DNA of 21,309 nucleotides from Bacteroidales bacterium. Lineage in GTDB: Bacteria > Bacteroidota > Bacteroidia > Bacteroidales > Bacteroidaceae. The position numbers and the translations under genes were made by a program. This document shows, piece after piece, positions 5,882 through 21,240 of the stretch (within the stretch, counting starts at the first letter, position 1; each line of letters opens with the position of its first letter). The notes under the pieces are model-generated. The model did no database searches. It was not told the DNA's origin and worked only from the letters and a program-made list of their open reading frames with translations. Location of the stretch: positions 1 to 21,309 of the forward strand of contig SFPC01000032.1 in NCBI GenBank assembly GCA_004552195.1, written 5' to 3'.

Positions 5882-6120
5882 GCGCGGGCCCAGAGGTATC
5901 CATCCGCGCGCACGCCCACGCCCTCAATCTCGAAAGGCTTCCGTAGGCGCGGGCCCAGAGGTATCCATCCGCGCGCACGCCCACGCCCCCTATCTCGAAA
6001 GGCTTCCGTAGGCGCGGGCCCAGAGGTATCCATCCGCGCGCACGCCCACGCCCCCTATCTCGAAAGGCTTCCGTAGGCGCGGGTCCAGAGGCATCCATCC
6101 GTGCGCACCCGCCCACGCTG
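5861..6120. repeat. 65-bp tandem repeat, four units, starting in the 3' end of upxY
   Basis: Units start at 5861, 5926, 5991 and 6056 and are nearly identical; the fourth differs at several bases and fades by ~6120. Each begins with the sequence of the last upxY codons (Leu-Glu-Arg-Leu-Pro-stop) and contains GCGCGG and CCGCGC arms separated by 16 bases, so each can form a hairpin. Because 65 is not a multiple of 3, successive units carry the same TAG in a different frame. The array fills most of the 322 bases between upxY and the Wza-like gene. The minus-strand open frames over it are by-products of the repeat. Confidence 0.95.
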
Positions 6121-6203
6121 CCCCACCATAACCCGAAGGCCGGATAGGCCACCTTGCCTGCCCCCGTGGGCCCCTTCCCCTTCTTGCATTACGCGTAATT
6201 CCC

Positions 6204-7016
6204 ATGAACATTCCCCATATTCTCCGCGCCACCCCAGTGCGCCACCTCCTTACCCTTGCCGCCGCCCTTGGCCTCCTGCTGGGCGTGGCCTCTTGTTCCG
6301 TGCCCCGCGATGTGGCCTATTTCCAGGACGCCGAAGCCCTCCACGGCATGGCCGTAGCCACCAGCGAGCAGTTCCGCCTGCGACCTGAAGACCGCGTGAA
6401 AATCAACGTGAACAGCAGCAACGCCATGCTCGAGGAGCAGTTCTCCCTCACCATGAGCGGCCAGCAGAGCACCTCCTCCCGGCAGCAGGTGGTCTACACC
6501 GTCGATGAGCAGGGCACCATCCAGTTTCCCGTACTCGGCAAAATCCGTGCTGAAGGCAAGACCCGCCAGGAGCTCGCCGCCTACATCCAGCAGCGCCTCC
6601 GCAGCCGCGAGCTCGTCGACGACGCCATCGTCACCGTGGAGTACGTCGACCTCTGCGTGAACGTGCTCGGCGAGGTGAACCACGCCGGCATCATTCCCGT
6701 CACGAAGGACCATTTCACCATTCTCGACGCCCTCAGCGGTGCCGGCGACCTCACCATCAACGGCGACCGCACCCGCGTCATGGTCACCCGTCAGGTCGAC
6801 GGCGTGAACCAGGTTTACTTCGTGGACCTCACGCAGATGCAGAGCCTGCTCCAGTCGCCCGCCTTCTACCTCCAGCAGAACGACCTCGTCTACGTCACCC
6901 CCAACGACAAGCGCAAGCGCGAGGCACAGTCTGTGGGCAACACCTTCAACACCCCCGCCGTCTGGATTTCCCTGGCCTCCCTGGCCACGACCATCGCCGC
7001 CCTCCTCATCCGCTAA
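6204..7016 (+). CDS. Wza-like polysaccharide export lipoprotein
   Basis: A 270-residue outer-membrane export protein. It has a lipoprotein signal (hydrophobic HLLTLAAALGLLLGVASC with the lipobox Cys at residue 31), then a polysaccharide export domain (FRLRPEDRVKINVNSS ... YTVDEQGTIQFPVLGKIRAEG, ~residues 56-145). A soluble-ligand-binding beta-grasp (SLBB) domain follows (VNVLGEVNHAGIIPV ... DALSGAGDLTINGDR, ~150-215). It ends in a hydrophobic segment (VWISLASLATTIAALLI). Shorter than E. coli Wza (379 aa), it has the size usual for Bacteroidetes homologues. It forms the outer-membrane channel that works with the Wzc-like kinase encoded 28 bases downstream. It follows the 65-bp array, so its expression should depend on read-through from upxY. 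Confidence 0.92.
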   Translation: MNIPHILRATPVRHLLTLAAALGLLLGVASCSVPRDVAYFQDAEALHGMAVATSEQFRLRPEDRVKINVNSSNAMLEEQFSLTMSGQQSTSSRQQVVYTVDEQGTIQFPVLGKIRAEGKTRQELAAYIQQRLRSRELVDDAIVTVEYVDLCVNVLGEVNHAGIIPVTKDHFTILDALSGAGDLTINGDRTRVMVTRQVDGVNQVYFVDLTQMQSLLQSPAFYLQQNDLVYVTPNDKRKREAQSVGNTFNTPAVWISLASLATTIAALLIR

Positions 7017-7044
7017 CCCCGCATTTCCCCTCCCATTCCCAGCC

Positions 7045-9153
7045 ATGTCTGAAAACGTACATACCAAGCGCAAGCCCGCCGAAGACTTCCTCAGCGTGAA
7101 GGACCTTTGGCACCTCTGCAAGCGCAATTGGAACTGGTTCGTCATCTCCCTCATCGTCTGCATAGCGGGCGCTGCCTTCTACCTCTACCGCACCCCCGAC
7201 CTCTTCACCCGCGAAGCCGCCATCCTCGTGAAGGAGGAAACGCTCGGCAAGACCAAGTCGCGAAACACCAGCGGCGAGGACTTCAGCGAAATGGCCCTCG
7301 TGCAGCAGCAGACCAACGTCTCCAACGTCGTGCGCCAGCTCTCCTCCCTCCGCGTCCTCTCCGAGGTGGCCCGCCGCATGAAGATGGGCCAGAACGAGCG
7401 CGACTTCCTCCATGCCGCCATGGGCCTGCAGCGCCGCTTCAAGGCATCCATCGACAACGAGAAGTCCACCGTCATCAACCTCCAGTTCGTCGACAATTCC
7501 CCCGAGCGTGCCGAAGAAGTGCTCGAGACCCTCATCCGCGTCTACAACGAGCAGTGGCTCGAAGAGCGCAACAAGGTGGCCGCCAGTACCTCGCGCTTCA
7601 TCGACGAGCGACTCGGCGTGATGGAAAAGGACCTCGGCGTGGTCGACGACAGCATCTCCTCCTTCAAGGCACGCCACCGCATCACCGACCTCGCCCACGT
7701 CAGCGATGTCTACCTCCAGCAGCAGAGCAGTTCCGAGGCCGAAATCCTCCGCCTCAACAACCAGAAAGGCATGGCCGAGTATGTGCTGCAAATCCTCCGG
7801 GACAAGTCGGCCCGCGACCAGCTCCTGCCGACCAATTCTGGGCTGAACAACATGCAGATCGAGCGCCAGATTGCCGACTACAACGACATGCTGCTCCAGC
7901 TCAAGAACAACCGCGTCGGTACCTCTACACAGAACCCCCGCATCCTGCGTCAGGAGCAGCAGCTCGAGGAAATGCGCCAGAACATCCTCACCTCCGTCAG
8001 CGGGCAAATCAAGACCATCGACATCCAGCTCCAGAAGTTCTACGACTTCAGCGGCGAGGCCAGCAGCAAAATTGCCTCCAACCCCGCACAGGCCAAGCAC
8101 CTCGTTTCCGTGGAGCGCGAACAGAAGGTGAAGGAGAGCCTCTACCTCTACCTCCTCCAGAAGAAGGAAGAGAACGAAATCAGCATGACCTACACCTCGT
8201 TCAACACCGAGGTGGTCGACATGCCCCACGGCAGCGACCTCCCCACCTCGCCCAACCGCATGGCCATCTGGGCCGCAGCCTGCCTGGCGGGCCTGTTCCT
8301 CCCCGCATTCGTCATCTTCGTGCGCGAGAACCTCAATACTACGGTGCGCTCGAAACAAGACATCACCCGTGTTTCCAACCTCTCCGTGGTGGGCGAAATT
8401 CCCTTCTTCGGCGAAAAGCGCAGCCGCATTCCCTTCTTCCGCAAGCGCACCAAGGGTGGCTCCCACCACACGCCCATCGTCATCGAGTTTGGCAAGCAAA
8501 ACTGGGTGAACGAGGCATTCCGCCTGCTCCGCACCAACCTCGAGTTCATGGCCAATGCCGAAAACTCGCACAACGTCTACATCGTCTCCTCCTTCTACGC
8601 CAGTTCGGGCAAGACCTTCGTGAGCATCAACCTGGCCGTGGTCATGGCCCTCAAGGGCTGGCGCGTGCTCCTCATCGACGGCGACTTCCGCCGCGCCTCT
8701 GCCTCGCGCAGCCTCCACTGTCCGCGTGTGGGCATTGCCGACTACCTGGGCGGAAAGGAAGTGGACCTCGAGTCGCTCAAGGTGGTGAAGAAAGCCTATC
8801 CCACGCTCCACATCCTGCCCGTGGGCACCATTCCGCCCAACCCCACCGAACTCCTCTCGTCCGACGGCATGAAGGACCTGATAGACCGGGCGCGGCAGGA
8901 ATACGACTACGTCATCGTTGACTGTCCGCCCTCCGACAACCTCGCCGACTCCAACCTCATGGAGCGCTATGCCGACCGTACGCTCTACATCGTCCGTGCC
9001 GGCGTGGCCGAGCGCAGCCGTATTCCCGAACTCGAGGCCGAAGTGGAGTCGGGCCGCTACAAGCACCTTTCCATTATCCTCAATGCCGTAGACCCGCGCC
9101 GCCTCCACGCCTACAAGGACTACTATTATTACTACTACGGCCGCCAGAACTAA
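7045..9153 (+). CDS. Wzc-like polysaccharide co-polymerase and tyrosine autokinase
   Basis: A 702-residue inner-membrane protein. Transmembrane segment 1 lies at ~30-50 (WFVISLIVCIAGAAFYLY), and a periplasmic Wzz/GNVR region with long coiled-coil helices follows. Transmembrane segment 2 is at ~405-428 (RMAIWAAACLAGLFLPAFVIF). The C-terminal cytoplasmic BY-kinase domain has Walker A YASSGKT (Lys523), Walker A' LLIDGDFRR (Asp545, Asp547) and Walker B YVIVDCPP (Asp626). The tail YKDYYYYYYGRQN carries seven tyrosines (690, 693-698), the autophosphorylation cluster of this family. It sets chain length and drives export together with the Wza-like protein. Kinase and membrane parts are fused in one chain, as in Proteobacteria and Bacteroidetes. 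Phosphorylation state is expected to control it. Confidence 0.95.
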   Translation: MSENVHTKRKPAEDFLSVKDLWHLCKRNWNWFVISLIVCIAGAAFYLYRTPDLFTREAAILVKEETLGKTKSRNTSGEDFSEMALVQQQTNVSNVVRQLSSLRVLSEVARRMKMGQNERDFLHAAMGLQRRFKASIDNEKSTVINLQFVDNSPERAEEVLETLIRVYNEQWLEERNKVAASTSRFIDERLGVMEKDLGVVDDSISSFKARHRITDLAHVSDVYLQQQSSSEAEILRLNNQKGMAEYVLQILRDKSARDQLLPTNSGLNNMQIERQIADYNDMLLQLKNNRVGTSTQNPRILRQEQQLEEMRQNILTSVSGQIKTIDIQLQKFYDFSGEASSKIASNPAQAKHLVSVEREQKVKESLYLYLLQKKEENEISMTYTSFNTEVVDMPHGSDLPTSPNRMAIWAAACLAGLFLPAFVIFVRENLNTTVRSKQDITRVSNLSVVGEIPFFGEKRSRIPFFRKRTKGGSHHTPIVIEFGKQNWVNEAFRLLRTNLEFMANAENSHNVYIVSSFYASSGKTFVSINLAVVMALKGWRVLLIDGDFRRASASRSLHCPRVGIADYLGGKEVDLESLKVVKKAYPTLHILPVGTIPPNPTELLSSDGMKDLIDRARQEYDYVIVDCPPSDNLADSNLMERYADRTLYIVRAGVAERSRIPELEAEVESGRYKHLSIILNAVDPRRLHAYKDYYYYYYGRQN

Positions 9154-9192
9154 CTCCTTCCGCAGGCTCACTCCCGCCCCTTCCTCCTGCCC

Positions 9193-10707
9193 ATGAACCC
9201 CGCCAACCGACGCATCGCCCTCAACACCGTCTACATGTACGTGCGTCTCGTCACGCTCATGGCGGTGGGCCTCTACACCTCGCGCCTCGTGCTTTCCGTG
9301 CTCGGCGTGAGCGACTACGGCATCTTTGCCGTGGTGGGCGGCGTGATGGCCCTCTTCACCTTCCTGAGCAATGCGCTGGCCAACGCCACCTCGCGTTTCC
9401 TCAACACCGAGATGGGGCGCGGCGGCGATGTCAATGCCACGTTCAACATCAACCTCCTGCTCCACGTGGCCCTGGCCCTGCTCATCTTCCTGCTGGCCGA
9501 AAGCGTGGGCCTCTGGTACATCCACTCCGGACTCAACGTGGCCCCGGGCCGTCTCGACGATGCCCTCTTCGTGTTCCAAGTTTCCATCTTCACCACCTGC
9601 CTCGGCATCGTGGCCAGCCCCTTCCAGAGCCTCTTCATCGCCCACGAGCAGTTCCGTTTCCAGATGGTGGTGGACATCGTGAACAGCCTTGTGCGCTTGG
9701 GGTGCATTCTCCTCCTGACCCTCTACGACGGTTCGGAAGCCCTGCGCCTCTACAGCCTCGTCTTCAGCCTCACTTCGCTCAATACCTTGGGCATCTACTA
9801 CTTTTTAGGACGCCGCCGCTGGCCCGAAATCATCCGCCTCCGCCTGGTGCGCGGCTGGGCCCGCTATCGCGAAGTGCTGGTGTTCAACAACTGGAACCTT
9901 CTGGCAACCCTCTCCTATATGGCCCGTTCCTCCGGAAGCGACATCATGCTCAACGCCTTCTTCGGCACTTCCGTCAATGGTGCCTTCGCCATCGCCAAGG
10001 CCGTGGGCGGCTACGTCAGCGAGTTTGCCGATAAGTTCGACAGTGCCTCTGCGCCCCAGATTGTGCAGGCTTACGCGGCCGGCGACCACGAGCGCGTCTC
10101 TTTCCTGGTCAACAAGATAGGCCGTGCCAATCTCCTGCTTTTTGAGCTGATGCTTTTCCCCCTGCTCATAGAGCTGGATTTCGTGCTTGGTCTTTGGCTG
10201 GGGGAAGTGCCTCCATTTGTGTTGGAATTGACGAGGATAAACCTTTGGTTGGGGCTGGTGGGAACGAGCTGTGGCGGCTTGGGCCCTCTCATCCGTGCCT
10301 ACGGACGCATCAAGTGGTTTCAGATAGAGCAGAGCACCTGCTTTCTTCTCTGTATTCCTTTAGGCATTGGCGTGCTTTCGCTGGGTTATTCCGCAAAGTC
10401 CCTGCTCTATCTCTTTCTGGTAGCCGACCTTGTCCACCGTTCCATACAGCTCTGCCTGCTTCGGCACCTGGTCGGTTTCGACTCCCTGCGTTACGTGCGT
10501 GAAGCTTACCTTCCTCCCTTTCTCATAGGTTGCATCATGTCTGTTCTGCTCCTTATATATAGTTATAATCCCTTCACTGCCGCTCCGCTCAAAATTATTG
10601 TCATAATTTCTACTTTCCTCCTGGCCGTCCTGCTTGTCTGGACGTTAGGAATGCAGAAGGAAGAAAGGTGTAGGTTTTGGGATGGAGGAGGTAAACAAAA
10701 ATCATGA
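9193..10707 (+). CDS. Wzx-like lipid-linked oligosaccharide flippase
   Basis: A 504-residue polytopic membrane protein with roughly 12-14 hydrophobic segments, of the MATE/MOP-type polysaccharide transporter superfamily. The N-terminus (RRIALNTVYMYVRLVTLMAVGLYTSR) and the following VLSVLGVSDYGIFAVVGGV are typical of the Wzx/RfbX-like group. It would flip undecaprenyl-diphosphate-linked repeat units from the cytoplasmic to the periplasmic face, ahead of polymerisation. It follows the Wzc-like gene by 39 bases on the same strand. Its 3' end (after ~10560) becomes clearly AT-richer, running into the low-GC gene downstream, which suggests a junction between differently sourced segments. Substrate specificity cannot be read from the sequence. 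Confidence 0.9.
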   Translation: MNPANRRIALNTVYMYVRLVTLMAVGLYTSRLVLSVLGVSDYGIFAVVGGVMALFTFLSNALANATSRFLNTEMGRGGDVNATFNINLLLHVALALLIFLLAESVGLWYIHSGLNVAPGRLDDALFVFQVSIFTTCLGIVASPFQSLFIAHEQFRFQMVVDIVNSLVRLGCILLLTLYDGSEALRLYSLVFSLTSLNTLGIYYFLGRRRWPEIIRLRLVRGWARYREVLVFNNWNLLATLSYMARSSGSDIMLNAFFGTSVNGAFAIAKAVGGYVSEFADKFDSASAPQIVQAYAAGDHERVSFLVNKIGRANLLLFELMLFPLLIELDFVLGLWLGEVPPFVLELTRINLWLGLVGTSCGGLGPLIRAYGRIKWFQIEQSTCFLLCIPLGIGVLSLGYSAKSLLYLFLVADLVHRSIQLCLLRHLVGFDSLRYVREAYLPPFLIGCIMSVLLLIYSYNPFTAAPLKIIVIISTFLLAVLLVWTLGMQKEERCRFWDGGGKQKS

Positions 10708-10730
10708 ACCCCAAAGATACGAATTGAAAG

Positions 10731-11648
10731 ATGAAAACATTTCTTAGAAGAACAAAGGCATTGATCGCTTGTCGCTTGTACAATCTATTTAAGAATGAAA
10801 GATTCTTTTGGTTGAAAACGACTGCACTTTATGAAATGAATTGCGGTTGTGCACTGAAGTACCCTCCGCGGTTGATTACGGAAAAGTTGATGTGGCTTAC
10901 GCGATATTGGCAACATCCGTTGAAAACCCAGTGTGCTGACAAGTATCTGGTAAGGGAGTATGTAGAGGAGAAGGGATTAAAGCATTTGTTGATACCTCTC
11001 ATTGCGGTTTTTGACTCTGCTGAAGAAATAGATTTCTCTGTTTTGCCGCAGCGCTTTGTGCTTAAGTGCAATCACGGGTCTGGGTATAATATTATTGTCA
11101 AAAATAAGGATGAAGAAGACGAGAGTGCAGTAAAGAATTCTTTTGCCGAATGGCTGAAGAGAGACTACTCAGAATTATTGGGAGAAGTTCAATATCATCT
11201 CATCCCACGAAAAATTGTGTGTGAAGAGCTCTTGTCAGCACAAGCGCCCATGGAGTACCAGTTCTGGTGTGTAAATGGTGAACCCGACTCCATGCTTGTT
11301 TGCCGGAAGAACCACGATGCCACTTACGAAGCCTATTCCTGCTCTTGTGCTTTTGAACAGCTCTTTGAACGTATCGGTGAGACGAAAATGCCGGATGACT
11401 TACAGAAACCAGCAAAGTTAAATGAAATGATTGAATATGCACGTATTTTGTCCAAAGACTTCCCCTTTGTGCGTGTTGATTTCTATTACGTGAATGACCG
11501 AGTGTATTTTGCCGAATTGACTTTTACGCCAGGTTGTAACTATTTCTTGAGCTATCCTGATAGTTTCAAAGTCCGTTTGGGCGACAAACTTGTTTTGCCT
11601 GAGGCAATAGATCCTCTTCCCTTTAAGCAAAAAGTTCAATCTAAATGA
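10731..11648 (+). CDS. TupA-like ATP-grasp protein
   Basis: A 305-residue protein resembling the TupA-like ATP-grasp family that is frequent in capsule and exopolysaccharide loci. Family landmarks are KLMWLTRYWQHPLKTQCADK followed by YLVREYVEEKG, the nucleotide-binding strand FVLKCNHGSGYNIIV, and the metal-binding end FPFVRVDFYYVNDRVYFAEL with TFTPG. ATP-grasp enzymes join a carboxylate to an amine or thiol with ATP. In polysaccharide loci they are suspected of adding amino acids or similar groups to sugars, but the exact reaction here is unknown. The gene is visibly AT-richer than its neighbours on the left, a sign of separate acquisition. It overlaps the next gene by four bases (ATGA), indicating translational coupling. 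Confidence 0.8.
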   Translation: MKTFLRRTKALIACRLYNLFKNERFFWLKTTALYEMNCGCALKYPPRLITEKLMWLTRYWQHPLKTQCADKYLVREYVEEKGLKHLLIPLIAVFDSAEEIDFSVLPQRFVLKCNHGSGYNIIVKNKDEEDESAVKNSFAEWLKRDYSELLGEVQYHLIPRKIVCEELLSAQAPMEYQFWCVNGEPDSMLVCRKNHDATYEAYSCSCAFEQLFERIGETKMPDDLQKPAKLNEMIEYARILSKDFPFVRVDFYYVNDRVYFAELTFTPGCNYFLSYPDSFKVRLGDKLVLPEAIDPLPFKQKVQSK

Positions 11649-12625
11649 GAACAAAAGCTGTATATGTCGTGGTGAGTGGCGAGACCGATGTCTATTTCGA
11701 GCAGGCATGGGTTTCGGCATGGTCGCTGAAGCATTACAATCCCGGGATGGAGGTGGAGTGCGTGGTAGACCCCGATACTTACGATCAGGTAATGGGTAGC
11801 TACCGCAGCCAGGCACTTTCTGTGATAGACCGCCTCGTGCGGGTCGAAGTGCCTGCGCAGTATGGCAAGAAGGAACGCTCGCGCTGGCTGAAGACCAGCG
11901 TGCGCCGGCACGTCGGGGGCGACTTCCTCTTTGTCGATACCGACACCATTGTCTGCGACAGCCTCCGGGACTTGGACAGCCTGGCGGGCGACGTGATGAT
12001 GGTGAGGGACCACCACTGCCCCTTCTCAGAGATGACAGACGCCAAGTATATCCTTCAAGGCATAGAGAATACGCTCGGTTCGCGCTTTACAGAGGATGAT
12101 TATTACAACAGTGGCGTAATCTATACGAAGGACACCCCCGCATCCCATGCCTTCTTTGAAGCCTGGCACGCGCAGTGGAAGGAGTTTCACAAGCAAGGCG
12201 TCCACACCGACCAGTGCTCTTTGGCTGTCCTGAACGCGAAGGTCCATGCCATCCAGGACTTGGACGACATCTACAACTGCCAGATACGCTTGTCGGTGCG
12301 TTTCCTTCACCGTGCCAAAATCGTCCATTTCTTCAATAACCAATGCCCTCAAAACAGCGTGCATCCGTTCGACTCCAGCGAGGTCTATAAGCAGGTGAAG
12401 AAAGAACGGACACTTAGCCCCGCATTCCAGCAGGCCGTGTTGGACTGCAAGTCGCTCTTCTACACCCAGACCTACATCCTCGGAGGGGAAGAGAGAGTGA
12501 TGTACGACGACTATGCGTGCCGGCTGTTGAGAGAAACGGTCGTAAAGAGCCCTTGGCTCTACTCGCTCATCAACAAGGTGTCGCGCGCCTTGCTGGTAGC
12601 CTATCTTGCACTCAAACATAAATAA
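11645..12625 (+). CDS. Glycosyltransferase, GT8-like (DxD)
   Basis: A 326-residue cytoplasmic glycosyltransferase with a GT-A fold. The N-terminal strand is AVYVVVSGETDVYFEQAWVS, with the metal- and nucleotide-sugar-binding DxD in GDFLFVDTDTIV (Asp98, Asp100). A later YYNSGVIYTKDTPASHAFF and HTDQCSLAVL match the NSG and acceptor-side regions of GT8-like enzymes. The C-terminus (SPWLYSLINKVSRALLVAYL) is hydrophobic and could sit at the membrane. It probably adds one sugar of the repeat unit to the lipid-linked acceptor. The start overlaps the stop of the ATP-grasp gene. GT8 and related GT32-like families are hard to separate by eye, and the sugar donor is unknown. Confidence 0.75.
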   Translation: MRTKAVYVVVSGETDVYFEQAWVSAWSLKHYNPGMEVECVVDPDTYDQVMGSYRSQALSVIDRLVRVEVPAQYGKKERSRWLKTSVRRHVGGDFLFVDTDTIVCDSLRDLDSLAGDVMMVRDHHCPFSEMTDAKYILQGIENTLGSRFTEDDYYNSGVIYTKDTPASHAFFEAWHAQWKEFHKQGVHTDQCSLAVLNAKVHAIQDLDDIYNCQIRLSVRFLHRAKIVHFFNNQCPQNSVHPFDSSEVYKQVKKERTLSPAFQQAVLDCKSLFYTQTYILGGEERVMYDDYACRLLRETVVKSPWLYSLINKVSRALLVAYLALKHK

Positions 12626-12632
12626 TGGCAGC

Positions 12633-13565
12633 ATGAATAGCTTGGTATCTGTGGTTGTCCCGGTGTACAACGCTGGGGAATATATCGGAAAGTGCCTGGA
12701 TTCTGTGCTGGCGCAGACCTATACCCAACTGGAGATTGTTGTTGTCAACGATTGTACGCCGGATCATTCCATGAAGGTCGTGGCCCATTATGCTGCGAAA
12801 GACGCCCGCATACGCGTGCTTGAGAACGGGCAGAACATGGGGACTATGAAGACGCGTGAACGAGGCTATCGCGAGGCACACGGACTCTTCGTTTTCTTTA
12901 TGGATGCTGACGATACGATTCGCCCGCATGCCATAGAACAACTGCTTCAAAAGCAAAAGGAAACAAATGCCGATATCGTTAGCGGCGCTTTCGTCTATCA
13001 CAAAAGAGGCGGTGGGAGGTTGTCCATTCCCGCAGCTTTACCTTTTGGAGACACCGCCGAAGCAACCCTTCGTGCCATGCTTCACGGCGATTTCCCGTTG
13101 AGCCTCTGCGCGAAACTCATTCGCCGCTCCTTGCTCACGGACCATGCCTATCAGGTTTTTCCGCATATGGTCGTCTCCGAGGATTGTTGCATGCTGTTTC
13201 AGTTGGTGGACCGGGCAGCGTGTGTAGCCTGCATAGACCGCCCCATTTATGACTGTACAGACAATGAGGCCTCTTCGACCCACCAGACCTTTACCCTGAC
13301 CCATATTGAAAATATCCTGACGACGCGCAAAATCATGTGCGAGACTTGTGCGCCCTATCCATCGTTGGCAGAAGACCTCGACCGCAATGTCACGTTTACC
13401 ATACTTCGTCTCTATTGCTATCCATTCCCTAAGGAAACGCTCCGGAAACTCTTCGAGAAGTATGGCCTGTCCCGTTATGGAACGTGGCGTCATGGCTGGA
13501 AGGTACTCAGCTTGCGCCAGTTCGTCGGCACATACATTTCGGCTCTAATTAAACGACAAGCATAA
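12633..13565 (+). CDS. Family 2 glycosyltransferase
   Basis: A 310-residue GT2 (GT-A fold) enzyme. It opens with LVSVVVPVYNAGEYIGKCLD, carries the nucleotide-binding Asp40 in IVVVNDCTPD and the DxD in FFMDADDTI (Asp91, Asp93). The acceptor-side acidic pair is in VSEDCCMLF. I chose ATG 12633 because a TTG extension to 12606 would overlap the preceding gene without adding family sequence. It transfers a sugar from a nucleotide donor to the growing lipid-linked repeat unit. Seven bases separate it from the previous gene, so it is in the same operon. Donor and linkage cannot be predicted. Confidence 0.88.
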   Translation: MNSLVSVVVPVYNAGEYIGKCLDSVLAQTYTQLEIVVVNDCTPDHSMKVVAHYAAKDARIRVLENGQNMGTMKTRERGYREAHGLFVFFMDADDTIRPHAIEQLLQKQKETNADIVSGAFVYHKRGGGRLSIPAALPFGDTAEATLRAMLHGDFPLSLCAKLIRRSLLTDHAYQVFPHMVVSEDCCMLFQLVDRAACVACIDRPIYDCTDNEASSTHQTFTLTHIENILTTRKIMCETCAPYPSLAEDLDRNVTFTILRLYCYPFPKETLRKLFEKYGLSRYGTWRHGWKVLSLRQFVGTYISALIKRQA

Positions 13566-13574
13566 ACGAAAACC

Positions 13575-14228
13575 ATGTACAAAAATTGCATAAAAAGACT
13601 GCTGGACATTCTCTTGTCCCTCTTCGCCCTGCTGGTGCTCGGCTTGCCGATGCTGGTGCTGGCCCTGATTATCCGCGTAACGATAGGTTCGCCCGTCCTG
13701 TTCCGCCAGCAGCGCGTGGGCAAAGGCGACAAGCCGTTTAGCCTCATGAAGTTCCGCTCCATGACCGATGCCCGCGACGCGAACGGTGTGTACCTGCCCG
13801 ACGAGGAGCGCATCACCAAGCTGGGCCATTTCCTGCGAACCACCTCGCTCGACGAACTGCCCGAACTCTTCAACATTCTCCGCGGCGACATGAGCATTAT
13901 CGGGCCGCGTCCGCTCCCCGTGCGCTATCTCGACCGCTACACGCCGCAGCAGCGCCGCCGCCACGAGGTGCGGCCGGGACTTTCCTGCCCCTCCATCATC
14001 GACGGACGCAACACCAACACCTGGGAACGGCAGTTCGAGGGCGATGTCTGGTACGTGGACCACCTGAGCTTCTGGACCGACCTCCACTGCGTGCTCCACA
14101 CCTTCCACATCGTGCTCACCCGCAAAGGGGCGACCGCCGAGGAAGGCATCAGCCGCGGCGAGTTTATCGGCACGGCCAATGTCGAGGACCTGAAGCACGA
14201 CCACGAGGGGAACTACATGAAGTTGTAA
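13575..14228 (+). CDS. Initiating phosphoglycosyl transferase, PglC/WcaJ-type
   Basis: A 217-residue member of the bacterial sugar transferase family (PF02397), in the short monotopic PglC form without the extra transmembrane helices of WcaJ or WbaP. The N-terminal re-entrant hydrophobic helix is ~10-33 (LDILLSLFALLVLGLPMLVLAL). It is followed by GSPVLFRQQRVGKGDKPF and LMKFRSMTDA, the catalytic Asp93-Glu94 dyad in TTSLDELPELFN, and DMSIIGPRPL. It transfers a sugar-1-phosphate from a UDP-sugar to undecaprenyl phosphate and so begins each repeat unit at the inner membrane. A variant RPGLSCPSIIDGRN replaces the more common RPG(I/L)TG(L/W)AQ stretch; that part may affect substrate choice. It lies directly before a GT4 (3-base gap) that may add the second sugar. 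Confidence 0.93.
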   Translation: MYKNCIKRLLDILLSLFALLVLGLPMLVLALIIRVTIGSPVLFRQQRVGKGDKPFSLMKFRSMTDARDANGVYLPDEERITKLGHFLRTTSLDELPELFNILRGDMSIIGPRPLPVRYLDRYTPQQRRRHEVRPGLSCPSIIDGRNTNTWERQFEGDVWYVDHLSFWTDLHCVLHTFHIVLTRKGATAEEGISRGEFIGTANVEDLKHDHEGNYMKL

Positions 14229-14231
14229 CGT

Positions 14232-15440
14232 ATGAAGATTGTATTCGTCGCAAATTTCCATGCACCGCTCGACGGACTCCTGACAGGACGGTTCGTCTTC
14301 CTGGGTGAAATGTTGTGCCGGCGGGGACACGATGTGGAACTCGTCGTTTCCGATTTCTATCACGACACCAAAAGTCCGCGTGTGGTAGAAAGTGACAAAT
14401 ATGCGACCAAGATAACTGTTCTGCACGAGCCGGCATACCACCGAAACGTGTCCTTGCGCAGGCTCCATAGCCATTGGTCATTCGGATGGCGCGCAGCCCG
14501 TTATGTACGCAGCCTGCAGGGCGTAGACTGCATCTATTGCGGTATGCCCGCCCTTTCTTCCACCTATTATATGGTACGCATTGCCGATGAACGGAACATC
14601 CCGCTTATCGTGGATGTACAGGACCTCTGGCCCGAAACGTTTGAGTTGGCGTTGCCCCATCCGGCATTGAAGTTCCTGCTCGCACCCATGAGGTATATGG
14701 CGCGTTATGCATACCGCCACGCAGATTGTGTGATGGGGGTTTCCCATACCTATGTGCGCCGGGCGTTGTCAGAGAACAGAAAGCATGCCGAGGGGGTGGC
14801 GGTCTATTTGGGCAACAATGGAAAAGCATTTGAAGAGGGTAGAAGGCTGTATCACCTGGAGCGAACGCCCCATGAAATCGTATTGGCCTATATTGGAAGC
14901 ATGGGATTCAGTTACGACATAGCCCATGTGCTGGAAGCGCTGCAAAGGGTAGCCCAAAGAGGACGGGTCGAAAAAAACATCCGGTTTGTGTTGATGGGGG
15001 GCGGAGAGAAGGAAGAGCAATTGCGCCAGTTGGCAGCTGAAATATATCCCAACACCTTATTTCTGGGGAGAAAACCGTACAGGGAAATGGCCGGTTTGCT
15101 CAGTGACTGCGATATGGCAATCAATCCCATCGTGAAAAACTCACAAGGCAGCATCATTAATAAAGTGGGGGATTATGCTTTGGCAGGCTTGCCGGTGATC
15201 AACTCCCAAGATTGCCCCGAATACCGTGACTTGCTCGACCGATATGCGTGTGGCATCAATTGCCGCTGCGAGAACGTGGATGACATGGCGGAGGCCATAG
15301 AGCGTTTGGCCATGGATGACAGTCTTAGAAAAGAAATGGCCGCAAATGCAGCGCGGTTGGGAAAGGAAAAATTTGACAGGAACGTAACTTATCAACCCAT
15401 CATTGATACAATTGAGCGTTTGGTGAAAACGCACAAGTGA
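14232..15440 (+). CDS. Family 4 glycosyltransferase (GT-B), WbuB-like
   Basis: A 402-residue retaining glycosyltransferase. The N-terminal Rossmann domain starts MKIVFVANFHAPLDG, and PLIVDVQDLWPETFELAL is typical of the WbuB-like group. The C-terminal GT1/GT4 domain holds IVLAYIGSMGFSYDIAHVLE and the donor-binding region NKVGDYALAGLPVINS, where the usual EX7E start is replaced by Asp. Such enzymes often act right after a PglC/WcaJ-type enzyme, adding the second sugar to the undecaprenyl-diphosphate-sugar. The gene follows the phosphoglycosyl transferase by three bases, which supports that pairing. Substrates cannot be read from the sequence. Confidence 0.88.
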   Translation: MKIVFVANFHAPLDGLLTGRFVFLGEMLCRRGHDVELVVSDFYHDTKSPRVVESDKYATKITVLHEPAYHRNVSLRRLHSHWSFGWRAARYVRSLQGVDCIYCGMPALSSTYYMVRIADERNIPLIVDVQDLWPETFELALPHPALKFLLAPMRYMARYAYRHADCVMGVSHTYVRRALSENRKHAEGVAVYLGNNGKAFEEGRRLYHLERTPHEIVLAYIGSMGFSYDIAHVLEALQRVAQRGRVEKNIRFVLMGGGEKEEQLRQLAAEIYPNTLFLGRKPYREMAGLLSDCDMAINPIVKNSQGSIINKVGDYALAGLPVINSQDCPEYRDLLDRYACGINCRCENVDDMAEAIERLAMDDSLRKEMAANAARLGKEKFDRNVTYQPIIDTIERLVKTHK

Positions 15441-15449
15441 TTATTTGTT

Positions 15450-16091
15450 ATGAAAAAGATTATCATCGTAGGTGCTGGCGGCTTTGGCCGCGAACTCCTC
15501 CAGTGGATCAAGGATATCAACGCCCAGTCAAAGGATGGGGGCGTGTGGGAGATTGTTGGCTTCATTGACGATGACCTCCATGCCTTGGACGGCGTGGAAG
15601 TAGACTATCCCATTGTGGGTAGCATCCGGGAGTGGCAACCCAAGGACGATGAGGTATTCGCCCTGGCCATGGGTTCGCCCGCTGTGAAGCGCAAGGTCGT
15701 GGATTTGCTGAAGGCGCGCGGTGCCCAGTTTGCCACCGTGGTCCATCCCACAGCCCTGCTCAGTCCCTTTGCCCACTACGGCGAAGGACTCGTGATGTTC
15801 CCTTATTCCAAACTCTCCTGCAACACGACGGTGGGCGACTTTGTCACCCTGCTCAGTTCGCCCATCGGTCACGACAACGTGATTGGCGACTTCACCGTCA
15901 TCAGCGGCGGGTGCAACGTGTTGCGCAATGTGAAGATCGGCAAGGACGTTTTCTTGGCAGCCGGTGTCTGTGTGGCGCAGGACGTAGTGGTGGGCGATGG
16001 TGCCTACTTGGGTTTGGGCAGTGTGGTCGTGCGCGACGTGGCTCCCCACACCAAGGTGTTCGGCAATCCTGCCCGTGTCGTTCCCATGTAA
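15450..16091 (+). CDS. NeuD/PglD-like sugar O/N-acyltransferase
   Basis: A 213-residue protein of the NeuD/PglD family. The N-terminal Rossmann-like subdomain is MKKIIIVGAGGFGRELLQWI with EIVGFIDDD. The C-terminal left-handed beta-helix is made of hexapeptide repeats, from VVHPTALLSPFA to VVVGDGAYLGLGSVVVRDVA and GNPARVV. The catalytic His is probably in IGHDNVIGDF. PglD acetylates the 4-amino group of a UDP-amino sugar and NeuD acetylates sialic acid, both from acetyl-CoA. No aminotransferase or sialic acid gene is in view, so the acceptor is open. It is the last gene before a 180-bp repeat-bearing gap, after which a ligase and an acyl carrier protein begin. It could take an acyl group other than acetyl, but this is only a possibility. 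Confidence 0.88.
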   Translation: MKKIIIVGAGGFGRELLQWIKDINAQSKDGGVWEIVGFIDDDLHALDGVEVDYPIVGSIREWQPKDDEVFALAMGSPAVKRKVVDLLKARGAQFATVVHPTALLSPFAHYGEGLVMFPYSKLSCNTTVGDFVTLLSSPIGHDNVIGDFTVISGGCNVLRNVKIGKDVFLAAGVCVAQDVVVGDGAYLGLGSVVVRDVAPHTKVFGNPARVVPM

Positions 16092-16250
16092 CTGATTACG
16101 GATAGCTTTGAATATTATTGATTACGGATTTATCTGAGTCTTCTGATTTTCTCTCAGTTAAATCAGTCAAATCCGTAATCCTTCCCTCCGATTGCAGATG
16201 ACCCTGGCTTGACAGCTGTTTTCAGTCAAATCAGAATAATCCGTAATCCA
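16092..16250. repeat. Intergenic repeats built on ATTACGGAT / ATCCGTAAT
   Basis: GATTACGGAT occurs at 16094-16103 and 16130-16139, and its reverse complement at 16171-16180 and 16239-16248. The segment 16130-16147 pairs with 16163-16180 over most of 18 bases. TCAGTCAAATC is repeated directly at 16163-16173 and 16222-16232. The whole makes a hairpin-rich gap in an otherwise tightly packed operon. A TAGCTTTG box (16103-16110) fits the Bacteroidetes -7 consensus but lacks a -33 partner, so an internal promoter for the downstream genes is only possible. Confidence 0.65.
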
Positions 16251-16270
16251 ACAAAAAGCGCAAACAGCTT

Positions 16271-17800
16271 ATGCGAAGTAAAATAGCTGATAGCTTCTAC
16301 GCCCATGCGGCGCGGCATCCCGAAAAATGTGCCATCTGGTGTGATGGCCAGACACGTACCTATGGAGAAATGGCCCGCTTGGTGAGCCAGTATTCCCATC
16401 TCTTGCAGGCCCACGGCGTAAAGTATGCCGACCACATCGCCATCCCGATGAACAACAGCATAGAGTCGGTGGCCCTCTTCTTCTCAGCTGCTGACCTGGG
16501 GCTCTGCTTGGTGCCGCTCAATCCCACCCTGCCTTTCGAGGCTATGGTCACGGCCATTGAGGCCAGCGACATCCGCCACCTCATTGCGCGCAAGTCCTTC
16601 CTGAAGGAGTGCCAAAAGCATGGAGGACTTCCCCTCAAGGGCATGACCCTCTGCCTCAATGCAGAGTTCGAAGTCGCTGTCCCCTTTGCAGAAATAGAAA
16701 AGATGCCGACGTATCGGCCCGAGTCGGCAGACCTCCGCGGCGACGAGTCCTTTATACTCACCATGACCTCCGGCTCTACGGGAGCACCCAAGCCCATCGA
16801 CATCAGTCAGCAGAACAAGGTAGACCGCGTGTACGCCCACGTGCGGGAGTACGGGATTACGGCCGATGACCGCGTGCTGGCCGCCACGCCCCTCTACCAT
16901 TCTTTGGCAGAGCGCCTCGTCATTCTCCCCCTGATGATTGGTGCCACGGCCATTCTTCTGCCCCGCTTCACCCCGCGCCTGTGGTTGGAGTGCGCCCGAC
17001 AGCAAGCCGCCACCTTCACCATTGCTGTTTCAGCCCAGCTTGCCCAGATACTTCCGTTGCTCGAAAGCGATGAGACTGCACCCATCGACAGTTTCCGCGC
17101 CATCGTTTCCTCTTCCGCCCTGCTCGAACCCGCAGTGAAACGCCGCCTCATAGAGAGATTGAAGTGCGAGTTTCACGAGATGTACGGCACCTCGGAAGTC
17201 TCCACGGCCACGACCATCTGTTTCCAGAAAGCCCGCCACAAGGAGCAGTCCGTGGGACGGCCCTTCGAAGGAGTGAGGCTGCGCATTCTGGACGACCAGG
17301 GCAAGGACTGCCCCGTGGGTGAAATGGGGGAAATTGCCGTGGCTTCGGCCCTTACTTGCAAGGGCTATTATAAGCAGACCTCCCAGGTGATGCTGGCCAC
17401 CCAAGGCGCTTTCTTCCTCACGGGCGACCTCGGTCGCTTGGACGAGGACGGTTACCTCTACTTCATGGGGAGAAAGAAGGAACTCATCATCACGGGTGCA
17501 GTCAATGTATCGCCCTCCGACGTGGATGCCGTGGTAGCCAAGCTGCCCGGCGTGGCCGAGTGTGCCGCCTTCAGCTATCCCGATGCCCGTCTGGGCGAAG
17601 TGGTGGCACTGGCAGTAGTGAAGGAGCCCGAGGCTGGACTGACTGCGCGCCAAATCCAGCGCCACTGCGCCCACCACCTTGCAGACTTTCAACAACCGCA
17701 CCATATCTTCTTTGTCGATGCCCTGCCCAAGAACGCCATGGGCAAGTTGCAGCGCATGAAGATTATTGACGTAATACCGCAACACCATGGAAGAAATTAA
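16271..17800 (+). CDS. AMP-forming acyl/aryl ligase (ANL superfamily)
   Basis: A 509-residue adenylate-forming enzyme. Core motifs in order are the phosphate loop TMTSGSTGAPKP (~164-175), MYGTSE (304-309), LTGDLGRLDEDGYLYF (383-398), the hinge GRKKELIITGAVNVSPSDVD (400-419) and the C-terminal catalytic lysine Lys492 in NAMGKLQR. These enzymes activate a carboxylic acid with ATP to an acyl-adenylate and pass it to a thiol, either CoA or a carrier protein. The acyl carrier protein gene begins inside the last 14 bases of this gene, so the natural acceptor is probably that protein's phosphopantetheine arm. The acid cannot be read from the sequence. In a capsule locus the cassette may supply an acyl or amino-acyl decoration of a sugar. 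It starts after a 180-bp repeat-bearing gap. Confidence 0.88.
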   Translation: MRSKIADSFYAHAARHPEKCAIWCDGQTRTYGEMARLVSQYSHLLQAHGVKYADHIAIPMNNSIESVALFFSAADLGLCLVPLNPTLPFEAMVTAIEASDIRHLIARKSFLKECQKHGGLPLKGMTLCLNAEFEVAVPFAEIEKMPTYRPESADLRGDESFILTMTSGSTGAPKPIDISQQNKVDRVYAHVREYGITADDRVLAATPLYHSLAERLVILPLMIGATAILLPRFTPRLWLECARQQAATFTIAVSAQLAQILPLLESDETAPIDSFRAIVSSSALLEPAVKRRLIERLKCEFHEMYGTSEVSTATTICFQKARHKEQSVGRPFEGVRLRILDDQGKDCPVGEMGEIAVASALTCKGYYKQTSQVMLATQGAFFLTGDLGRLDEDGYLYFMGRKKELIITGAVNVSPSDVDAVVAKLPGVAECAAFSYPDARLGEVVALAVVKEPEAGLTARQIQRHCAHHLADFQQPHHIFFVDALPKNAMGKLQRMKIIDVIPQHHGRN

Positions 17801-18032
17801 AGAATTCATTGTAGACTACATCCAGCGCGAGTACACCCTTCCCGCCGACATGGACGTGATGGAACTGAACTATATCGAGTCGGGCTACATCGACTCGCTG
17901 GGCTTCGTGCAGTTCGTGGCCCTGATTGAAGAAGAGTTCGACATCGTCTTCTCTGATGAAGAGCTCGACAGCCCCGACATGAAAGTGGTGGGCAAGTTGG
18001 TGGCACTCATTGACCGCAAACGTAACGCATAA
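17787..18032 (+). CDS. Acyl carrier protein
   Basis: An 81-residue acidic four-helix carrier protein. The phosphopantetheine attachment site is Ser37 in GYIDSLGFVQFVALIEEEF, the DSL motif at the start of helix 2. It overlaps the ligase gene by 14 bases, so the two are almost certainly translated together and act as partners. The protein would hold an acyl group as a thioester and offer it to an acyltransferase, or to the oxidoreductase encoded six bases downstream. Housekeeping AcpP sits among fatty acid synthesis genes and has the longer motif around DSLD; this one has DSLG and is a dedicated pathway carrier. A D-alanine-type carrier (as DltC) is another possibility. Confidence 0.9.
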   Translation: MEEIKEFIVDYIQREYTLPADMDVMELNYIESGYIDSLGFVQFVALIEEEFDIVFSDEELDSPDMKVVGKLVALIDRKRNA

Positions 18033-18038
18033 CCGGCT

Positions 18039-19217
18039 ATGGCAACCGACCACATCAGCATAGGCATGGTGGGCGCAGGCCGCGCTTCCGAACTCCACCT
18101 GAATGCCCTGAAGCGCTTCTCGGAGTTCCCCGTACACCTCCGCCACATTGTGGCCCCGCGCACCGGGCAGGTCAATGCCATGAAGGAGCGCTTCGGTTTC
18201 GAAAAGGCATCCTCGGACTTTCAGGACTTGCTGCGCGACCCCGAAATCGATGTGATTGACATCTGCACGCCGCCTTACGTCCACGAAGAGATGATTGAGG
18301 CCGCCCTGGCCGCGGGGAAGCACGTCGTCTGCGAGAAACCCCTCACGGGCTACTTCGGCTTGCCCGGCGATGCAGAGCCCATCGGGGAAAAGGTGTCGAA
18401 GGCCGTGATGTTCCGCCACGTGGTCGAACGCATGGAGCGCCTGCAGCGCATTGTGGAGCAGTCGGACCGGCAGTTCATGTATGCCGAGAACTTCATCTAT
18501 GCCCCCGCCATCCTCAAGGCGGCGGAAATCATCCGCGCCAAGAAGAGCCGCATCCTCTTTGCCAAGGGCGAGGAGAGCTTGAAAGGCTCCAGTTCGCCGG
18601 TGGCGGGAGAGTGGAACCGCACGGGCGGCGGCACGTTCATCCGCACGGGTTCCCATCCCCTCAGTGCCATCCTCTGGCTGAAGCAGCAGGAGGCCCAGAC
18701 GTTGGGCAAGAGCATCCGCGTGAAATCGGTGCTGGCCGACATGACCCGCCTCACGCCTTCCCTTTCGGAATATGAGCACCGCCACATTGCCGCCCGTCCC
18801 CACGACGTGGAGGACATCGGCACCGTGATACTCGCCTTCAGCGACGGTTCGCGGGCGGTGGTGATGGCCAACGATACGCTCTTGGGCGGCAGCAAGAACT
18901 ATGTGCAGCTTTACTGCAACGATACGGCCATCAACTGCCGCCTGACCATGGCCGACATGATGGAAACCTATTTCCTCGACGAAGAAGGGCTGGACGAGGT
19001 GGAAATCTCCGAAATGCTCCCGCAGAAGACGGGCTGGAACAAGCCCTTCCTGCTCGACGATGTCATGCGTGGCTATACCGACGAGATGAAGGACTTCATG
19101 GAGTGTGCGCGCTACAACCGTCACCCCAAGTCGGACTTTCAGGTGGCGGCCGAAACTGTACGCATCATTTATGCGGCCTACCAGTCGGCAGAACAGGGTA
19201 GGGTAGTGGAACTTTAA
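18039..19217 (+). CDS. Gfo/Idh/MocA-family oxidoreductase
   Basis: A 392-residue NAD(P)-dependent oxidoreductase. The N-terminal Rossmann fold starts ISIGMVGAGRASELHLNAL. CTPPYVHEEMIEAALAAGKH leads to the conserved VVCEKPL, with catalytic Lys100. The C-terminal alpha/beta domain carries GGGTFIRTGSHPLSAILWL, where the His is kept but the Asp usual before it in sugar dehydrogenases is replaced. An unusual stretch after EKPLT (YFGLPGDAEPIGEKVSKAVM) is longer than in typical members. Family members oxidise or reduce sugars, sugar nucleotides and other polyols. Here it may make a keto-sugar donor or act on the group supplied by the ligase/carrier pair directly upstream (6-base gap). The substrate is unknown. 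Confidence 0.88.
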   Translation: MATDHISIGMVGAGRASELHLNALKRFSEFPVHLRHIVAPRTGQVNAMKERFGFEKASSDFQDLLRDPEIDVIDICTPPYVHEEMIEAALAAGKHVVCEKPLTGYFGLPGDAEPIGEKVSKAVMFRHVVERMERLQRIVEQSDRQFMYAENFIYAPAILKAAEIIRAKKSRILFAKGEESLKGSSSPVAGEWNRTGGGTFIRTGSHPLSAILWLKQQEAQTLGKSIRVKSVLADMTRLTPSLSEYEHRHIAARPHDVEDIGTVILAFSDGSRAVVMANDTLLGGSKNYVQLYCNDTAINCRLTMADMMETYFLDEEGLDEVEISEMLPQKTGWNKPFLLDDVMRGYTDEMKDFMECARYNRHPKSDFQVAAETVRIIYAAYQSAEQGRVVEL

Positions 19218-19230
19218 TCCATAGCAAATC

Positions 19231-20109
19231 ATGGAAAAACCCTTATTCTCTGTTGTAGTACCCTTATACAACAAGGAGCAGAGTGTGCGGAAAACCTTAG
19301 AGGGTATTCTGGCACAGCGCTATTGCCATTTTGAGATTGTGGTGGTAGACGATGGAAGCACAGACAACAGTGTGGAGGTGGTGCAGTCGTTGCATTCCAA
19401 TCAAATACGCATCGTCCGCAAGGAGAATGGCGGAGTTGCCTCAGCACGAAACCGTGGCATAGAGGAGGCAAAAGGAGATTGGATTGTATTCTTTGATGCT
19501 GACGATACCATGTATCCGAACGCGTTGGAGGAGTATGCGAAGATGATTGCAGACTATGCCGATGCGGAGGTGTTGGTTTCTTCTTATGATGTTTCGGTGA
19601 AACGGAATGTCTCGTCGCCGCAATACCATTACTGTGCGAGCTACTTTCGCGAAACCGTCAAGTATTATGCCCGCGGGAGTTTCTATTTTGCGTGTACGGG
19701 GGTTGTCTGTGCGAAAAAATCGTGCTTGCGCAGTTTGGGGGGCTTTAATGAAGTTTATACCCACGGTGAGGATATAGACATGTGGTACAGGCTGGTGTCT
19801 CGCTTCGTGACGGTAAAGAGCGATGTGGTCACAGCCATGTATCAGTTAAGTGCCCCAAACAGAGTGAGCCATCGGAAAGATAGATCAGAATCGAAACACT
19901 CCCCCCTTGCCGTCATCAGACCCAGAAACACCTATTATGACTTCTACGAGAAGATTTGGGTGGGACTGAATGTCGTGCACGCAGCCTTCCCGAAAGGATG
20001 GAAAAGCAATCCTGGAATGCATGCCAAAAGGTTGCTGAAGTACGCTGATTGGGCCTTCATCTACGGGCTCTATTTGGTGAAGTACCGCCTATTGAAAAGT
20101 AAATTCTAA
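19231..20109 (+). CDS. Family 2 glycosyltransferase
   Basis: A 292-residue GT2 enzyme: LFSVVVPLYNKEQSVRKTLE at the N-terminus, nucleotide-binding Asp40-Asp41 in IVVVDDGSTDNS, the acceptor-proximal NGGVASARNRGIEEAKGDW, DxD in VFFDADDTMYP (Asp89, Asp91) and an acidic pair in YTHGEDIDMWYRL that positions the catalytic base. It would add a sugar to the lipid-linked repeat unit in the cytoplasm. It follows the oxidoreductase by 13 bases and precedes a GT4 by three. This gene keeps the full catalytic set and closely fits the family. Sugar donor and acceptor are not predictable. Confidence 0.9.
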   Translation: MEKPLFSVVVPLYNKEQSVRKTLEGILAQRYCHFEIVVVDDGSTDNSVEVVQSLHSNQIRIVRKENGGVASARNRGIEEAKGDWIVFFDADDTMYPNALEEYAKMIADYADAEVLVSSYDVSVKRNVSSPQYHYCASYFRETVKYYARGSFYFACTGVVCAKKSCLRSLGGFNEVYTHGEDIDMWYRLVSRFVTVKSDVVTAMYQLSAPNRVSHRKDRSESKHSPLAVIRPRNTYYDFYEKIWVGLNVVHAAFPKGWKSNPGMHAKRLLKYADWAFIYGLYLVKYRLLKSKF

Positions 20110-20112
20110 GCT

Positions 20113-21240
20113 GTGGCAGTCAGGCTATTGACGTTCGGGTTGAGTGGCGTCACCTTCGGTGGCATAGAGGCATTTGTGGTGTCGTTCCGTAGGCATCTGC
20201 AAGAAGCCTGTGTGTTTGATTTCGTTCTCTTGGAAAACAATACCATCCAAGCTTATACGGAAGATGACGCCCGTGGCCGCGTGTTTCAGATTGCGCCGTA
20301 CTGGAGCCATCCGTTCTCCTATATAAGGGACATCGTACGCTTGTTCAAAGCGCAACGCGATGCCGCCGATGCGGTCTATTGCAATGTGTTCAACACCCTC
20401 CACATCTGGCCAGTGCTGATTGCCCGCTTGATGGGATTGAAGGTGATTGTGCATGCGCACAACAACCGGATCCCCTCCCGGAATGTGCTGTACAGGATGG
20501 GATGCCTTATCGGAAAGCAACTGCTTCGCCGGTGCGAGTGCCTCAGACTGTCCAATTCAGACGACTCGACTGCGTTTATCTTCGGTAGGGACCGGATAGG
20601 GAAGACGCATGTCATTTATAACGCGATTGACATCGAGCAGTTCCGGTACAACGCTCCGGTGCGCGAGCAAATCCGAAAAGAATGGGGCGTAGGGGACAAA
20701 GTCGTGGTAGGTTTTTCCGGCAGACTTCTGGAACAGAAGAATCCCCTCTTTGCCGTGCGGGTGTTTGAGCAGTTCCACAGAATGCACCCCGAGAGTGTCC
20801 TGGTGATGGCGGGCGAAGGAACGATGAGAACCGAGGTGGAAGCATGGATAGAAAAGAACGGTTTGAAGACCTGCGTCCTGCTCACCGGGAAAAGTGGACA
20901 AATGGGCCGGCTCTATCAAGGCATGGACTTGTTCTTGTTGCCTTCCCTCTTCGAAGGGTTGGGCATCGTGCTCATCGAAGCACAGTGTGCCGGCCTTCCC
21001 TGCCTGACGACAGCCGATACCATACCGGACCTGGTGGATGCGACGGAACTTATTGAAAGGGAACCGCTTTCCTCTACTCCCCGGCAGTGGGCAAAGCACT
21101 TAGAAAAGTTGTTACAGAAACGATATAAAGGGCGCGCGGCTTACAGCAACGAAATTGCAGCTTCACGCTTCAATGTGCGGACAGAAGCGCACCGCTTTGC
21201 CCGGCTTGTAGAGCAATATATCCATGAACCTGCTGACTGA
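20113..21240 (+). CDS. Family 4 glycosyltransferase (GT-B)
   Basis: A 375-residue retaining glycosyltransferase. The N-terminal acceptor domain begins RLLTFGLSGVTFGGIEAFV, with the glycine-rich turn common in GT4 capsule enzymes. The C-terminal domain has VVVGFSGRLLEQKNPLFAVR and the donor-binding EX7E motif in LPSLFEGLGIVLIEAQCAG. The start is GTG 20113, three bases after the previous stop; no in-frame ATG lies near enough to be a better start. It overlaps the next gene by 17 bases. It would transfer a nucleotide-activated sugar to the growing repeat unit. It is a complete enzyme, and the donor cannot be read. Confidence 0.9.
   Translation: MAVRLLTFGLSGVTFGGIEAFVVSFRRHLQEACVFDFVLLENNTIQAYTEDDARGRVFQIAPYWSHPFSYIRDIVRLFKAQRDAADAVYCNVFNTLHIWPVLIARLMGLKVIVHAHNNRIPSRNVLYRMGCLIGKQLLRRCECLRLSNSDDSTAFIFGRDRIGKTHVIYNAIDIEQFRYNAPVREQIRKEWGVGDKVVVGFSGRLLEQKNPLFAVRVFEQFHRMHPESVLVMAGEGTMRTEVEAWIEKNGLKTCVLLTGKSGQMGRLYQGMDLFLLPSLFEGLGIVLIEAQCAGLPCLTTADTIPDLVDATELIEREPLSSTPRQWAKHLEKLLQKRYKGRAAYSNEIAASRFNVRTEAHRFARLVEQYIHEPAD

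Follow-up and report, generated by a model that had tools for sequence, protein, structure and literature searches.

In Vibrio cholerae O1, according to passages of PMC3441752, an acid ligase and a carrier protein (RfbK/RfbL, with WbeL; VC0248–VC0252) provide an acyl group that is placed on a 4-amino sugar of the surface polysaccharide. In role, this ligase and carrier correspond to those proposed for the gene trio described here. The V. cholerae acid is tetronate, whereas the acid proposed below is cyclic. Presumably a hexapeptide transferase is also part of the tetronate system; to our knowledge the tetronate genes include oxidoreductases of other families and neither a DAHP synthase nor a dehydroquinate synthase. 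What differs from V. cholerae O1 is the proposed acid and the genes that would feed it. Hexapeptide enzymes of the NeuD/PglD type are sugar N-acetyltransferases that usually take acetyl-CoA as donor, while the donor proposed here is an acyl-carrier. The solved Gfo/Idh/MocA enzymes (inositol dehydrogenases, KanD2, GenD2, glucose-fructose oxidoreductase) have the fold and the EKP motif in common with the enzyme of this locus. Searching the open-licence literature, we found neither a decoration of the proposed kind nor a function for the trio in the passages retrieved (PMC3441752, PMC12208996, PMC9481697).

The window, meaning the whole stretch of 21,309 nucleotides analysed here (a Bacteroidales bacterium, contig SFPC01000032.1), holds the trio within the following features.

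6204..15440, + strand: operon context, with an export protein (at 6204), a GNVR/AAA chain-length-type protein (7045), a flippase-like protein (9193), a TupA-type ATP-grasp protein (10731) and glycosyltransferases
13575..14228, + strand: PglC-type phosphoglycosyl transferase, the proposed first-sugar transferase (PF02397, 196 bits)
15450..16091, + strand: NeuD/PglD-like hexapeptide acyltransferase, the proposed N-acyltransferase of the module (TIGR03570, 165.4 bits, cut-off 160.8)
16092..16270, no strand: AT-rich gap with direct and inverted GATTACGGAT copies, from a repeat count
16271..17800, + strand: class I adenylate-forming ligase, acid activation and transfer to the carrier (PF00501, 225 bits; PF13193, 54 bits; Lys492; conserved family A1)
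17787..18032, + strand: acyl carrier protein with attachment site Ser37 in a DSL motif (PF00550, 25.3 bits, cut-off 20.8)
18039..19217, + strand: Gfo/Idh/MocA oxidoreductase, the proposed acid reductase (PF01408, 84 bits; model near several Gfo/Idh structures)
19231..21240, + strand: two downstream glycosyltransferases without a DNA match in the nearest relative, locus L021

An earlier note on this DNA had read three genes in 16271–19217, packed with a 14-base overlap and a 6-base gap, and this layout is correct, the genes lying at 16271–17800, 17787–18032 and 18039–19217; its catalytic landmarks were likewise all found, as Lys492 (in PKNAMGKLQ), Ser37 (in YIDSLG) and EKP (from Glu99). The Pfam domains of the trio are AMP-binding and AMP-binding_C, PP-binding, and GFO_IDH_MocA. 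With both of its domains and the catalytic Lys the first protein is a class I adenylate-forming enzyme; among the 25 NCBIfam models listed of 106 matching, none reached its cut-off. The second is an acyl carrier, with a PP-binding domain and a DSx serine, for which no NCBIfam subtype cut-off was passed. The capsule-operon setting that had been described also stands, since polysaccharide export, chain-length-type, sugar-transferase and glycosyltransferase genes surround the trio. Above the Pfam cut-offs the surroundings gave Poly_export/SLBB, GNVR and AAA, NusG-like, PglC-type sugar transferase and glycosyltransferase domains, and judged by these families the operon is of the surface-polysaccharide type. 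The open reading frame at 9193 is flippase-like by eye, and a family-model search gave no match for it. A tyrosine recombinase gene (Phage_int_SAM_5 and Phage_integrase; window 2307–3332, − strand) lies upstream of the operon; recombinase control is frequent at capsule-type loci.

The nearest relative, L021, helps to delimit the unit. At the DNA level the window and L021 are 97.7% identical in the sugar transferase gene, 95.3% in NeuD and 95.5% over the trio block (16222–19219), and they also have 6030–10561 (94.6%) and, less closely, 11645–12856 (88.7%) in common. No match in L021 was found for the TupA-type gene, the GT4 gene at 14232–15440 or the downstream glycosyltransferases, and in L021 the sugar transferase stands directly before NeuD. 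Given this high identity amid unmatched glycosyltransferases, the sugar transferase, NeuD and the trio look like a unit inside a partly changing glycosyltransferase set. The TupA-type ATP-grasp gene (10731–11648) is likely a recent import, because its GC content is low (41%, GC3 44%, with GC-richer neighbours) and it lacks a DNA match in L021. The trio itself bears no such mark of foreign DNA in its GC content. Downstream of the NusG-like gene (window 5900–6115) there are short repeats: two stretches of the window align with a single 88-base segment of L021 (1278–1365), and that segment is also the start of the long block common to the window and L021.

To see how widely the trio occurs, genome contigs were scanned with the ligase alignment A1. 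This gave 39 loci, from which 36 close relatives, a set that rests on two peptide patterns, were retained; L057–L059 (21–26% identity) do not enter the counts. The span in which neighbours were counted reached 7 kb upstream and 8 kb downstream of the first base of the ligase gene. In an initial relative search (L001–L020), only L001 had the same ligase. The carrier is present in 35 of the 36 loci, the exception being L043, where the contig ends at the ligase. The oxidoreductase lies no more than 4 kb from where the ligase begins in 31/36 (the L035 copy is cut by the contig end), and it is missing from L043, L053 and L055, whose contigs end at the ligase, and from L039 and L040, which lack it within about 10 kb. 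The claim that the trio is conserved is thus borne out. The earlier note had also named a finding that would speak against it, namely ligase and carrier without the oxidoreductase in most genomes; the evidence mostly goes the other way, as only L039 and L040 are without it where some 10 kb of sequence is available to either side. The best 120 ligase and best 120 oxidoreductase proteins have 17 contig sizes in common, against a null mean of 0.4 and maximum of 2. A DegT aminotransferase occurs in 11/36 loci and a sugar transferase in 16/36. The Fisher values of the neighbour counts (3e-5, 0.003) are inflated, because L044–L048, L050 and L056 are closely related. In L056 (Lacrimispora xylanisolvens ASCUSBR21, 9929–11522) the ligase frame is split into three ORFs where its close relative L046 has one.

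By their records, 32 of the close loci come from Bacillota in the broad sense, two from Bacteroidales and one from Fibrobacter, and several are of ruminant origin by title. Near the window's own lineage the trio is rare. The ligase is 96% identical in the nearest genome (G001, which carries L021), and the next of 61 relatives reaches only 29%. With the oxidoreductase profile at E 1e-80, one of 393 sampled genomes of the order and one of 399 of the family matched, in both cases G001. The ligase profile at E 1e-120 matched one of 395 genomes in the class of the genome behind locus L026 (G804), namely G804 itself. Bacteroides relatives of the oxidoreductase (P0233) were sought in genus g26, where 0/158 genomes matched, a blank answer that carries no weight as absence. 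Among plasmids the oxidoreductase had one match, in Microvirga (36%), and the ligase none; among phages the oxidoreductase had none.

Taken together, the trio is a recurring module whose probable task is to load an organic acid on a carrier for attachment to a surface sugar. Genes next to its relatives suggest that this acid derives from the opening reactions of aromatic amino acid synthesis, perhaps as a ring acid of the quinic type. The sequence establishes which parts there are, how far they are conserved and which partners recur with them, and every chemical step is one that we infer from this. Together with the preceding NeuD-like gene, the trio would form an acyl-ACP N-acylation module for an amino sugar of a surface glycan. 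The ligase would adenylate the acid and load it on the carrier, and NeuD would pass the acyl group on to a 4-amino sugar, itself the product of a DegT aminotransferase. That the ligase and carrier yield a protein-bound thioester, as had been claimed, is very likely, here for glycan decoration, with the chemistry predicted throughout. The nature of the acid is less certain: erythrose 4-phosphate with PEP (DAHP synthase) or with pyruvate (aldolase) would give DAHP, dehydroquinate synthase would close the ring, and the Gfo/Idh enzyme would reduce the ketone of dehydroquinate to a quinate-type cyclohexane carboxylic acid. Where only the trio is present, as in the window, the housekeeping shikimate pathway would provide the dehydroquinate, and elsewhere the DAHP synthase, aldolase and dehydroquinate synthase would boost or replace its supply. 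We give even chances to this full route, in which a carrier-loaded quinate-type acid made from dehydroquinate would be amide-linked to an amino sugar by analogy with the tetronate acylation of V. cholerae O1. It would offer a testable substrate class for a trio that recurs in Bacteroidota and Bacillota, it would link glycan decoration with the shikimate pathway, and it would account for additional DAHP and dehydroquinate synthases whose genes might wrongly be assigned to amino acid biosynthesis.

The acyl transfer step has two candidate enzymes. NeuD lies upstream of the ligase in 20/36 loci (within 1 kb in 17), and the window copy passes the NeuD/PglD model TIGR03570. A GNAT-like protein, c9, is found in 10/36; the two never occur together, which suggests that they perform the same step, N-acyl transfer, and six loci have neither. 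No Pfam match was found for c9, and its low-confidence model (mean pLDDT 65) matches Eis2 and N-myristoyltransferases with TM 0.40–0.48. The window's NeuD is likely the acyltransferase of the module. The statement that the cassette has no dedicated acyltransferase other than the NeuD-like protein upstream is incomplete, as NeuD is not incidental there. The pattern of V. cholerae acylation is seen in the window as ligase, carrier and hexapeptide transferase, while the amino-sugar DegT gene is in the L021 operon and not in the window. This DegT, apparently the last gene of that operon, is nearest to LegC, below cut-off (353 vs 420), and could supply the amino sugar. The tie to polysaccharide loci holds for the window's own operon; a restriction to capsules does not follow, as five loci have NeuB/NeuC-type nonulosonate genes (taken from protein clusters, those of L038 also scored; the flanks of the Lacrimispora-like L044–L048, L050 and L056 lie outside the annotation).

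A central question is whether the oxidoreductase acts on the acid or on a sugar. The window enzyme has the N- and C-terminal domains and the EKP of the Gfo/Idh/MocA family, and passes none of the cut-offs of nine NCBIfam families; most of its PDB sequence matches are limited to the N-terminal domain. Its model (pLDDT 76.8) lies at TM about 0.6–0.7 from an uncharacterised oxidoreductase, KanD2, GenD2 and inositol dehydrogenases, and resembles sugar enzymes, glucose-fructose oxidoreductase among them, just as closely. As both ring-hydroxyl and sugar enzymes are near, the fold leaves the substrate unsettled. These models, and the general knowledge that many Gfo/Idh enzymes act on sugars, would fit two separate jobs, with ligase and carrier acylating with some acid and the oxidoreductase oxidising a nucleotide sugar into a building block. 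Gene order argues otherwise: the oxidoreductase is kept with ligase and carrier even where sugar genes of the NeuB/NeuC type take the place of DegT/PglC, and in L023, L024 and L027 it sits between the carrier and an aldolase. Because it is constant beside the acid-activating genes and the sugar genes vary, the acid is the more likely substrate, and the sugar oxidoreductase of the earlier note loses ground; two separate jobs appear improbable.

A hint to the acid comes from the feeder genes, which are present in 24/36 loci in several gene orders. A DAHP synthase is found in 13 loci and an HMGL-type (pyruvate-type) aldolase in 11, never together, and 12 loci, several on short contigs, have neither. 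All 13 DAHP synthases contain the KPRTS motif; an ad hoc third pattern is present in 8/13, and the two that were scored, from L047 and L042, pass TIGR01361 (384 and 386 vs 268). The genomes of four such loci have two or three family members each. The aldolases contain RDGG and HxHNN in 11/11, and the two scored are nearest to 4-hydroxy-2-oxovalerate aldolase, whose cut-off they do not pass. Only two of the 36 loci, with differently ordered cassettes, have a 3-dehydroquinate synthase, after the aldolase in L026 and after the oxidoreductase in L031, and both pass aroB. Five further dehydroquinate synthases, which also pass aroB, are on contigs equal in size (at least 3.5 kb) to trio-ligase contigs (null mean 0.27, max 3). 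Such agreement in contig size is indirect evidence. Pointing the other way, a sixth such contig (1937 bases) is too short for both genes, as are two (1427 and 1572 bases) of three contig sizes common to dehydroquinate synthase and oxidoreductase, and among contigs above 5 kb no dehydroquinate synthase contig equals an oxidoreductase contig in size. The scored DAHP and dehydroquinate synthases of the relatives' cassettes pass curated models for the entry to the shikimate pathway, but they sit in glycan cassettes, and none is in the window. Of the module genes the window has only the trio and NeuD, and neither the window nor 40 kb of the G001 contig contains a DAHP synthase, aldolase or dehydroquinate synthase; the one dehydroquinate synthase of G001 lies outside the module. 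The unusual decoration that the earlier note suggested stands as a proposal, and the building block it could not name now has a candidate from the relatives' neighbours.

Some of these genes would also serve an open-chain 3-deoxy aldonic acid, for which the aldolase or DAHP synthase would make a 3-deoxy-2-ulosonic acid, the Gfo/Idh enzyme would reduce its 2-ketone and the ligase would load the product, comparable to 3-deoxytetronate in V. cholerae O1. There tetronate acylates perosamine, according to the passages of PMC3441752. The nearest model of the aldolases fits this route, and so do FkbM methyltransferases in 10/36 loci if the acid is O-methylated. It leaves the dehydroquinate synthases of L026, L031 and the same-size contigs unexplained, and a 7-phosphate product would need a phosphatase; we regard this route as rather unlikely. 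A version modelled on the flagellin glycan of T. denticola, which reportedly carries an O-methylated acid, is attractive because the DAHP synthase loci hold FkbM methyltransferases; it was set aside, the loci analysed including none from Treponema. Finally, in L022, L028, L030, L032, L035 and L053 the ligase has a KAS III, an SDR and a further carrier as neighbours, as if it fed a small polyketide-like or other acid and the shikimate-type genes were coincidental neighbours. Against the frequency and varied order of the feeder genes, and with no KAS or SDR cluster member in the window, this is very improbable; those cassettes possibly extend the loaded acid. L039 and L040, which have a DAHP synthase and no oxidoreductase, speak against the quinate-type route.

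The quinate-type reading can be taken further with the genome of L026 (G804; 1,503,442 bases). Its sole dehydroquinate synthase is that of the cassette, and no other member of the shikimate pathway turned up among the enzymes looked for, a set without shikimate kinase and type II DAHP synthase. Chorismate synthase was not found in G804 (the only miss among 17 genomes), nor an EPSP-synthase-family protein (the only miss among seven), a type I DAHP synthase (absent, with G806 and G813, from 3/17) or a shikimate dehydrogenase (absent from 3/6). When six shikimate-pathway housekeeping proteins taken from the L031 genome were compared with all of its bases, only dehydroquinate synthase matched, at the cassette. 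G804 is either an incomplete MAG or a wall-less lineage, because MurA was not found and 17/20 tRNA types were. Against this reading, the L024 and L054 genomes, which may be incomplete, have the module and no dehydroquinate synthase was found in them; in L024's neither a type I DAHP synthase nor a shikimate dehydrogenase was found either. We tentatively suggest, as a possibility short of even chances, that bacterial surface glycans are decorated with a carbocyclic acid of the quinate type, bound as an amide and drawn from early shikimate steps, and that some lineages that make no chorismate keep an aldolase and a dehydroquinate synthase only for this, the pyruvate aldolase replacing DAHP synthase.

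It is worth adding that the gap before the ligase is repeat-bearing, as had been noted. GATTACGGAT occurs four times in the window, two copies on each strand, where 0.02 are expected, and all four are within the 179 bases of 16092–16270. In this mid-operon position the repeats may serve recombination or regulation, and at the same gap L021 carries a more extended series of similar units.
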